Source: Clostridia bacterium (lineage in GTDB: Bacteria; Bacillota; Clostridia; Christensenellales; Borkfalkiaceae). Taken from it: a DNA stretch of 64,000 nucleotides. Shown piece by piece: positions 49,039 to 52,926 of this stretch. Each line of letters begins with the position of its first letter. The stretch's first letter is position 1. The notes beneath the pieces were generated by a model that made no database searches, had not been told where the DNA came from, and saw only the letters and a program-made list of their open reading frames with translations. The stretch is taken from assembly GCA_029066845.1 (NCBI GenBank), contig JAIEFR010000002.1, positions 21,970 through 85,969 on the forward strand. Reading direction: 5' to 3'. The position numbers and the translations under genes were made by a program.

Positions 49039-50910
49039 ATGAAGATTAAAAAGGCTTTGCCCGTACTCGTTTCGCTGGTTATGGCGGGCGGTGTGCTTGC
49101 GGGCTGCGCACACACTCACACCTATTCGGATGAATGGACTAAGGCGGAGGACGGAAGCGGTCACTACCACGTTGCTACCTGCCATCCCGACGAGCACGAC
49201 GCGGTTAAAGACCACGTTTACGACAACGATGCGGACACCACTTGCAACGACTGCGGCTACGTGCGCACGGTTGAGCAGGAAACACCTACGCCGACGCCCA
49301 CCCCGACTCCTACCCCGACACCCACACCCACGCCAGAGGAGCAAATTACATATTCTCCGTTACCTGCAGACAAGAAAATTTACGTGGTCGGCGATTCTAC
49401 GGTGTGCTCGTTTACCGATGTAATGTATTTGCCTCGCTACGGCTACGGCACGCAATTGCACGAATATTTAAACGTGCAGGAAAGCCAGGTTAAAAACCTT
49501 GCACTTTCCGGAAGAAGCTCCAAGAGCTTTACATATAACTTGACTGTAGACAAAAGTAATAAAAACTCAGTTTCCGGTGATTTGTCTTGCTATGAATATT
49601 TGACGACAAATATTGCTGCGGGCGACTATCTCATTATCGGCTTCGGTCATAACGATGAAAAGAGCGACGATTCCGCGCGTTATACAACTGCTAAGGAAAC
49701 GGATACGTACACTACCGCGGGCTCTTTCCAGAAAACGCTTTACGACAATTATGTGAAAATGGCAAAGGATAAGGGAGCAACGCCTATTCTCTGTACGCCT
49801 ATTACCAGATACGACGCAAGCGGCGCATACACGGGTTCTAAGGTTCACGTAACGGCGGATGGTGACTATGCTAAAGCAATCAAAACTTTGGGCGATGCAA
49901 CCGAAACTACGGTAATTGATTTAACGGCTTTGACGGTTGCCGAGTATAAAAAGGACAATGCAGCGGCGCAGTACTATCACTCGCACGGTTCCTACGAGGG
50001 CGACCCTGTTACTGGTGACGTTACCGGTAACGAAACTCCTACGGGTAGGGACGATACGCACATTAACGAGTACGGCGCAAAAATGGTTGCTTATCAGTTT
50101 GCAAACGCACTGAAAACGACCAGCTGTACTTTGAGGTCGCACGTCAAGGAAAATATTTCTGCTCCTACGAAAGAGGTTGATTATATTGCGGCGGTTAAGC
50201 ACGCTAATTTTGTAAAGAAACCTTATAAGCCTTTTAACCCCGCAGACGCGTCTAGCAAATGGACGATTTCCGCAGAAGGCTGGTACGGCACCGTTATGGG
50301 CGAACACGGTGGCAACAGCATCGACAGTAATTACAGGGTGGAAGAGGCGGACGGTAAGTTCACCGTAGGTACGAGCGCAAAGAAGGGCAAGTTCTCAAGT
50401 AGCGCCGATGGTTTTGCTGCCGCGTTTATGCAAGTAGCAAAAGATAAAAACTTCAAGATTTCTGCTACGGCTAAGCTTACTACTGTAACGGCATCTGGCG
50501 ACAACCCCAATCAAGCGGCGTTTGGACTTATGTTGCGCGACGATATTTACAACAACGTAGCCGCTCAGGACAAATCTCTTAACAGCAATTACGTTGCCGC
50601 AGGCGTTTTTGGCGACGGCAAAAACGCAATTTTCAGCCGTAAAGATACAGTTTTAAGCACCAACGCCCGTACGGCTACTGTTTCGACAACGGCAAATTAT
50701 ACTATGTCTATCGAAAAGATAAATCAGTCTGTCACGGTTACTTTCTCGGACGGAACTAACAGCTATACCGTTAGTGATGAATTCCTTGACTTTAACTTCT
50801 GTGCGGTAGACAGCGATTATATGTATATCTGCCTGTTTGCAACGAGAGGTATAACGGCTGAATTTACCAATGTTACGTTCGAAGATAAGGGGACGAATGA
50901 AGGTGCGTAA
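49039..50910 (+). CDS. SGNH/GDSL hydrolase lipoprotein (rhamnogalacturonan acetylesterase-like) with (PT)n linker
   Basis: Lipobox LAGC; GDSTVC, GFGHNDEK, DDTHINEYGA. Confidence 0.88.
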   Translation: MKIKKALPVLVSLVMAGGVLAGCAHTHTYSDEWTKAEDGSGHYHVATCHPDEHDAVKDHVYDNDADTTCNDCGYVRTVEQETPTPTPTPTPTPTPTPTPEEQITYSPLPADKKIYVVGDSTVCSFTDVMYLPRYGYGTQLHEYLNVQESQVKNLALSGRSSKSFTYNLTVDKSNKNSVSGDLSCYEYLTTNIAAGDYLIIGFGHNDEKSDDSARYTTAKETDTYTTAGSFQKTLYDNYVKMAKDKGATPILCTPITRYDASGAYTGSKVHVTADGDYAKAIKTLGDATETTVIDLTALTVAEYKKDNAAAQYYHSHGSYEGDPVTGDVTGNETPTGRDDTHINEYGAKMVAYQFANALKTTSCTLRSHVKENISAPTKEVDYIAAVKHANFVKKPYKPFNPADASSKWTISAEGWYGTVMGEHGGNSIDSNYRVEEADGKFTVGTSAKKGKFSSSADGFAAAFMQVAKDKNFKISATAKLTTVTASGDNPNQAAFGLMLRDDIYNNVAAQDKSLNSNYVAAGVFGDGKNAIFSRKDTVLSTNARTATVSTTANYTMSIEKINQSVTVTFSDGTNSYTVSDEFLDFNFCAVDSDYMYICLFATRGITAEFTNVTFEDKGTNEGA

Positions 50911-50934: not shown

Positions 50935-50965
50935 AAAGCGGCGGCGGAAATGCCGCCGCTTTTTC
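50935..50965 (+). terminator. Intrinsic terminator
   Basis: AAAGCGGCGGCGGAAATGCCGCCGCTTTTT. Confidence 0.75.
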
Positions 50966-51061: not shown

Positions 51062-51101
51062 TTGACACGCAGGGGGGGGGGTGTTAACATTTACGTGTCA
51101 A
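51062..51101 (+). promoter_or_regulatory. Promoter with G10 spacer tract and flanking inverted repeat TTGACACG...CGTGTCAA
   Basis: TTGACA-17-TAACAT with upstream TGT; bases 51072-51081 are all G. Confidence 0.65.
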
Positions 51102-51162
51102 TATTAATATGTTGAAATGTTGGCAATTTAAATTGAAAATTTTTTTGGAGGGTACATAAATT

Positions 51163-52926
51163 ATGAAGGCAAAGAAGATTGTTGCCGTTGTTATGGGCGC
51201 TGCGCTTGCAGGAACTCTGGCAATCGGTATGAGCGCGTGCAGCGGCGGTAAAAAGCCCGAAAACTTAAAAGAGGGCACTTTAAACATCGCAAACTACGCG
51301 AAAGAGTATGACAGCGACGGCTTCACTACTCAGTATAGCGAAAAAGGCTTTACGGGTCTTGAAAAAGTTTTGTCTATGGGTCAGGAAGACGCCGTTGACC
51401 AGCTGATCGAGGGCTATTTAGTCGTTGAAGACGGCACGGATAAGTATGCCGTTCTGGACTTATATGCAAACAAGAAAATTATCAGCGGACTTACTGGCGT
51501 TCCTCAGAACTATTCTATTGGTTATCTCAACGTGATTATGGTAGTTTATGAGGGCACGGACGAGGATCAGGTTGAAATTTATACCTACGACGGCACCAAG
51601 ATTCTTGAAAAAGCTACTTATACTCAGCAGCCTCAAATTACCAGTTCGCAGCTTTTCGTCGGCAACGATACCACAAGGTCTACGGTTTATAAGATTGAAA
51701 CCGCAAAGCTTGTAAACGACGAGGAAGAGGACGTTGAAGTATACGTAAAGGCAACCGCGGACGAGAAAACCCAGGTCTTTACATATACCGTTGTTAAAGA
51801 GTCGGATTTAAAGACCTACGCTCCCGAATACGCAGTAGGCAGCGACAAGAGCGGTCTTAAAAACCCCGTATACATCACAAGCAAGGCCAAGCCCGTAGAA
51901 GGCGAAATCAAGGATTACGAATACAGCTATATAGGCAATAAGTATACCTTCTATAAAAACGGCGCCGAAACCGGCAGCGTTGACCTTACTAACGGCGAAG
52001 TTTTGGCGGTTATGGGCAACAGCTTATATTATACCGTAAGCATTCCCGTAAGCCCCGAAGCAACCAAGGGTTACAATCTGGCGGCAATCGGCAGCAAGGT
52101 TGATTACAGCCTCTATAAGTACGATATCATCGAAAATACTACGACCGAGCTTAACTATGACGTTGTTGTAATGAATATGAAAACACTTTACAATTACGAA
52201 ACCAAGGCTTACGACGCTGCGCTGATTTCAGGTATAAAGATTTCGGACGACGGCGTTGCTTACGGCGCAGACGAGTTTACGTACGTTATCAATAACAATT
52301 TCGAGCTCTGCTACGACGTAACCGGTATGATAAGCGAAGTTCGCAGCATCGCCAGCATCGGCAATGATAAGTATCTGATTGATGATTCGGTAATCGTTGA
52401 TTCCAACCTTAACGTTTTAAGCGAAACCGACTACTACGACAATGTTTATACCAACGAAGGGCTTGTCGGCTTTGAAGCGAGCAGCAGAATCGGTTTTAAA
52501 GATTTAAACGGCAAAGTTGTTATCGCTCCCGAATATACCGGCGTATCCGGCACCCCTATATTCTACGGCGGCGTTGCATACGTGAGAAACAAGGACGGCG
52601 AGCTTGTATTCCTTAAAAAGGACGGCACCGAAACGAAAATTTCCGACCTTGAAGAGAGCTCCGACGATAAAGTCGTAAAGACCGTACAGGTTAACTTTAA
52701 CGGCACTTATTCCATAACCACCGTTACTACTCCCGATCAGGGCGATGTTACGAGAACCCGTGCTTACTATTCGTATAACGGCACGCTTCTGAAGAGCTTT
52801 GACCTTACCAAGAGTTCGGTAAGCGGACCTATGCTTAAGAACGGCAGCTACTATATCATCGAAACTACCGTAAGCGGCACCGGTACCGATATTACTTATA
52901 CCTCGACTTTATACAAGCTGGTTTAA
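51163..52926 (+). CDS. Large surface lipoprotein of unknown function with WG-repeat-like C-terminal segment
   Basis: Lipobox IGMSAC; IGFKDLNGKVVIAPEYTGVSGTPIFYGGVAYVRN. Confidence 0.8.
   Translation: MKAKKIVAVVMGAALAGTLAIGMSACSGGKKPENLKEGTLNIANYAKEYDSDGFTTQYSEKGFTGLEKVLSMGQEDAVDQLIEGYLVVEDGTDKYAVLDLYANKKIISGLTGVPQNYSIGYLNVIMVVYEGTDEDQVEIYTYDGTKILEKATYTQQPQITSSQLFVGNDTTRSTVYKIETAKLVNDEEEDVEVYVKATADEKTQVFTYTVVKESDLKTYAPEYAVGSDKSGLKNPVYITSKAKPVEGEIKDYEYSYIGNKYTFYKNGAETGSVDLTNGEVLAVMGNSLYYTVSIPVSPEATKGYNLAAIGSKVDYSLYKYDIIENTTTELNYDVVVMNMKTLYNYETKAYDAALISGIKISDDGVAYGADEFTYVINNNFELCYDVTGMISEVRSIASIGNDKYLIDDSVIVDSNLNVLSETDYYDNVYTNEGLVGFEASSRIGFKDLNGKVVIAPEYTGVSGTPIFYGGVAYVRNKDGELVFLKKDGTETKISDLEESSDDKVVKTVQVNFNGTYSITTVTTPDQGDVTRTRAYYSYNGTLLKSFDLTKSSVSGPMLKNGSYYIIETTVSGTGTDITYTSTLYKLV

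Follow-up and report, generated by a model that had tools for sequence, protein, structure and literature searches.

A poly-G promoter spacer as a candidate phase-variable switch of a predicted lipoprotein gene from an uncultured member of the Clostridia

In this study we describe a promoter that carries a run of ten G residues (G10) in its spacer and that is most likely a transcriptionally phase-variable promoter. It lies in a 64-kb stretch of DNA from a Clostridia bacterium, which was analysed as a whole and is called the window here. A preliminary description had proposed such a switch, and phase variation proved to be the best reading, backed by evidence from the genome, the genus and the order. 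The -35 hexamer, the G10 tract, the -10 hexamer TAACAT and the 17-bp spacer that it had listed are all present and correct to the base (Table 1). The promoter reads TTGACA-CGCA-G10-TGT-TAACAT over positions 51062-51090. In a promoter scan it took the top rank of the region with 10 of 12 consensus matches and a TG directly 5' of the -10 element, and its transcription start is predicted at about 51097. As in promoters of the porA/tp0126 type, a homopolymer of at least about 8 bases lies wholly inside the -35/-10 interval, the spacing is near the 17-bp optimum (17 bp at G10), and the gene downstream codes for a predicted surface or secreted product with signal segment and lipobox.

Table 1. Features at and around the G10 promoter (positions in the window)
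Feature	Position	Strand	Remarks
SGNH/GDSL-type hydrolase (lipoprotein), 623 aa, upstream neighbour	49039-50910		signal peptide, Thr-Pro repeat; Pfam
Intrinsic terminator behind the SGNH-type hydrolase gene	50938-50960	+	terminator-like sites 50938-50956 and 50940-50960
-35 hexamer TTGACA	51062-51067	+	6/6 consensus match, promoter scan
G10 homopolymer, proposed slippage site	51072-51081	+	within the promoter spacer
TG-extended -10 element, TGT TAACAT	51082-51090	+	hexamer TAACAT at 51085-51090, 4/6 consensus match
CGTGTCAA	51094-51101	.	reverse complement of 51062-51069; spans the predicted start at ~51097
Shine-Dalgarno sequence GGAGGG	51147-51152	+	by inspection
Predicted lipoprotein, 587 aa, controlled gene	51163-52926	+	signal segment and lipobox by inspection

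The lipoprotein gene with its ribosome-binding site had also been described correctly. By inspection, the 587-aa open reading frame begins with a hydrophobic segment followed by a lipobox (..GMSAC), and its product is predicted to be a surface protein. Pfam and NCBIfam searches returned nothing but a sub-threshold WG beta-repeat at residues 444-477, and a structure prediction without alignment reached a mean pLDDT of 33.5, too low to be informative. The intrinsic terminator of the upstream gene shields the G10 promoter from read-through. Because this terminator closes the upstream gene, the lipoprotein gene probably relies on the G10 promoter. Just three distant homologues of the lipoprotein were found (in genomes G005, G041 and G055) and none of them has a G tract, hence gene and switch have not been conserved together. 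Searches of genome contigs and viral contigs found no other copy of the G10 locus. The SGNH/GDSL-type hydrolase gene stands between recG and the lipoprotein gene. In G005 the lipoprotein homologue directly follows recG with no hydrolase gene between them, and the hydrolase gene therefore looks inserted or lost.

Replication slippage, which we infer for this tract, would gain or lose G residues at 51072-51081. Tract length would set the distance between the two hexamers (16 bp at G9, 17 bp at G10, 18 bp at G11), and each shift would alter the helical orientation of the -35 relative to the -10 element. RNA polymerase would be expected to fire well at 17 bp and less well on either side, and cells within one clone might in this way make differing amounts of the 587-aa lipoprotein. 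By analogy with tp0126, porA and fetA the assembled G10 state would be the ON state, with G9 and G11 being weaker. Since the -10 element carries its TG extension along, expression may be graded over G9-G11 rather than strictly on or off; the TG could also make the promoter less sensitive to spacing. The central position of G10 in the top-ranked promoter speaks for phase variation, whereas the -10 hexamer with just four of six consensus bases, the distant homologues without the tract and the single assembly of the species count against it.

An ordinary constitutive promoter, in which the G run stands in the spacer by happenstance and its length has no biological role, is the alternative that survives best, although it is unlikely. 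It is favoured by the fact that we are dealing with a single locus from one assembly whose distant gene homologues have no tract. Against it stands the composition of the window, where runs of G or C become rapidly rarer with length: we counted 199 runs of length 4, 51 of length 5, one of length 6, none of length 7-9 and one of length 10, so that no G/C run other than G10 exceeds 6 nt. An iid model predicts 0.14-0.19 runs of at least 10 per window, where one is observed. For runs of at least 7 the expectation is 7.7 and G10 again is the only one present, which shows that long G runs are otherwise scarce in the window. Two further observations argue against happenstance. The other long G runs of the genome occupy frame-switch positions, and the promoter architecture recurs far above controls, in front of surface-type genes.

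The genome (1.56 Mb, 25 contigs) contains few G runs of at least 8 in a pattern search, and apart from the G10 promoter all mid-contig ones lie at the 5' end of giant paralogous genes. Their tracts sit 23-24 nt after the ATG, and the genes typically start with ATGAAGATGTTTAAAATGACNACT-G(n)-CAAGCACTTTTAAG. Where the long frame can be traced to a stop, the products measure about 1500-1900 aa; they have a hydrophobic segment at the N-terminus, and a membrane segment plus tail at the C-terminus. The tracts measure G8 to G12 between near-identical flanks; that such flanks carry different lengths is evidence for length changes of G tracts in this lineage. In ten copies the frame is open at G9 or G12 only, in the paralogue on contig C21 at G10 (or G7, G13), and in the one cut by the end of C14 at G8 or G11. 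Comparing the tracts with these lengths puts 3 of the 12 readable paralogues in frame (on C7, C17 and C20) and 9 out of frame. The paralogues are found on contigs C7, C8, C11, C14, C17, C19, C20, C21, C22 and C24 (loci L036-L038, L040, L053-L060). Several contigs break within giant paralogue genes, and the end of C9 and the start of C12 each consist of impure long poly-G inside a gene of this family. A protein search with the N-terminal part gave 20 matches in the same genome (G000). Of the 94 genomes of the genus, 10 contain the family, the highest number of matches being 21, and some relatives have G9 or G11 at the equivalent place. Judged by these sequences, the family would comprise about 20 surface-type genes, each putatively gated by a coding G tract.

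Poly-G promoters themselves are widespread among the relatives. In a pattern search TTGA-N3-11-G8+ was present in 43 of the 94 genomes of the genus. A -10 element (at least 5/6) at a spacing of 15-20 followed 24 of 48 TTGAC sites, compared with a mean of 5.3 and a maximum of 13 when the 40 bases after the tract were shuffled in 1000 trials; at sites with TTGA but not TTGAC such a -10 was found in one of 16. Among the 28 strong sites of the genus, tract length ranges from G8 to G15 and spacing from 12 to 21 bp, as would be expected if switching promoters had been caught at one moment. The strict pattern TTGACA-N3-9-G9-N0-3-TATAAT yielded 66 sites in 38 of 397 genomes of the order, belonging to 16 of 142 genera, and its reversed control gave no sites in the same 397 genomes. 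A scan of a public collection with one genome per species returned at least 119 matching stretches. Among the matches listed, most come from Clostridia and Bacilli MAGs, and Saccharibacteria, Helicobacter, Streptobacillus, spirochaetes and Chloroflexi are represented as well; the match in Pumilibacter muris (L200) is identical in sequence and contig coordinates to one in G188, so that Pumilibacter (class Clostridia) appears to belong to the order. A C-run control was not clean, because some of its matches are poly-C promoter spacers. These loci (L134, L135 and L140, all of the same genus) have tracts of nine or ten C residues in spacers of TTGACA/TATAAT-like promoters, and it is possible that they represent the opposite-strand counterpart. 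Two genomes contain four copies each of one poly-G promoter, TTGACAAAC-G9-TGATATAAT in G177 and TTGACAAGACGGGAC-G10-TATAAT in G324, which suggests duplicated families of switchable genes. G-tract promoters recur among these relatives, most likely as a device for the random up and down switching of surface genes.

The genes behind poly-G promoters differ from their neighbours. We compared ORFs of 100 aa or more whose start lies no further than 220 bp from such a promoter with the other ORFs of the same loci, using identical, crude sequence rules for N-terminus and lipobox in both sets. A signal-peptide or membrane-type N-terminus was found in 70 of 107 ORFs (65%) behind poly-G promoters versus 78 of 594 (13%) in the background (p about 3e-28, an indicative value given the dependence among related loci); the share with a lipobox was 26% versus 4%. 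One example is the promoter TTGACAATTCCGCTC-G10-TATAAT of a related genome (L190). The gene behind it codes for a lipoprotein of 675 aa and comes immediately after tuf, in a ribosomal neighbourhood shared with the window. Moreover, between homologous promoters of different species the tract is kept and its length differs, as judged from BLAST pairs and direct reading (MAFFT misplaced the tracts in some groups). The homologous promoters L068 and L069 have G10 and G12. Related loci in four species (L083, L086, L117 and L122) have tracts of G11, G9, G9 and G10, and three of them precede ABC-transporter-like ORFs. The promoters TTGACAAATATCGTC-G9-TATAAT at L086 (spacing 18) and TTGACAAATATTTTA-G10-TATAAT at L122 (spacing 19) both stand before an ABC-transporter-like gene; at L083, with TTGACAATTTGCGTC-G11-TATAAT (spacing 20), the downstream gene is cut off by the contig end. 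At two other homologous loci from two species (L088 and L110), G10 and G11 lie directly 5' of the ATG with no clear -10 element, a position from which the tract may influence the ribosome-binding site or switch the start codon.

Still less likely than the constitutive promoter is a fixed regulatory element, in which the G tract or an inverted repeat serves as a binding site or structure without slippage switching. Such an element could make use of the perfect 8-bp repeat, one arm of which (TTGACACG, 51062-51069) lies on the -35 hexamer and the other over the predicted start, with a gap of 24 bp (32 bp from start to start). The preliminary description had noted this repeat around the hexamers and suggested an operator. 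The repeat is exact as given; the operator role did not hold up. The window contains 156 perfect 8-bp inverted repeats whose arms are separated by 3-60 bp, and when the 197-bp intergenic stretch is shuffled, such a repeat turns up in 19% of cases; with the repeat at chance level, we dropped the operator. An invertible promoter (inverton) finds no support either, as judged by the same chance-level 8-bp repeat with its 24-bp gap. In addition, the sequence next to the tract is not constant from one recurrent poly-G promoter to another, and tract length varies from 8 to 15, which speaks against a fixed site. The least probable explanation is an artefact of sequencing or assembly that concerns the tract itself or the length given for it. 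Contigs C9 and C12 of this assembly do terminate in long stretches of impure poly-G, and poly-G read artefacts at G tracts have been described (PMC9187656), but the tract lies mid-contig between intact promoter elements and the same architecture was met independently in many other assemblies. The exact tract length in the assembly is doubtful.

Taken by itself, the single promoter is of moderate interest, and the wider repertoire is of greater interest. It is likely that the G10 locus is part of a large and apparently undescribed repertoire in uncultured Clostridia, made up of order-wide poly-G spacers in front of genes for lipoproteins and secreted proteins and, in this species, of about 20 giant genes each gated by a coding G tract; our search of open-licence papers found no description of G-tract promoter switching for this lineage. 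The recurrence of the architecture across this order of mostly uncultured Clostridia implies that clonal populations are heterogeneous in surface composition. Such heterogeneity matters for phage predation, immune recognition and strain-level metagenomics.

Phase variation through homopolymers is familiar from Neisseria, Campylobacter, Helicobacter and Treponema. Closest to the G10 promoter are two systems. In porA of Neisseria meningitidis (van der Ende et al. 1995) a poly-G promoter spacer has a reported 17-bp optimum (PMC7864442, PMC5320596), and as here the tract lies wholly between -35 and -10 in front of a surface-protein gene; organism and gene are unrelated, however, and for porA there are measurements of how tract length varies and what this does, whereas our case is known from sequence. 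In Treponema pallidum tp0126, an OmpW homologue, poly-G likewise lies between -35 and -10 and transcription is optimal at 17 nt (PMC7864442), the spacing of the G10 state, although the product is an outer-membrane protein of a spirochaete and not a lipoprotein of a Clostridia-type bacterium. A homopolymer in the same interval changes the expression level of fetA in Neisseria gonorrhoeae (PMC5320596), but there it is poly-C on the coding strand and the gene codes for a TonB-type receptor. In Bifidobacterium breve, a Gram-positive gut commensal as well, G-tract slippage controls the pilus, a surface structure (PMC9187656). This tract is a frameshift switch in a coding region, resembling the giant paralogue family, whereas G10 lies in a promoter spacer. 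In conclusion, our findings support assigning the G10 promoter to the porA/tp0126 type, with slippage as the presumed step. The mechanism is already known from Neisseria and Treponema, and what is new is apparently the lineage in which it is found.
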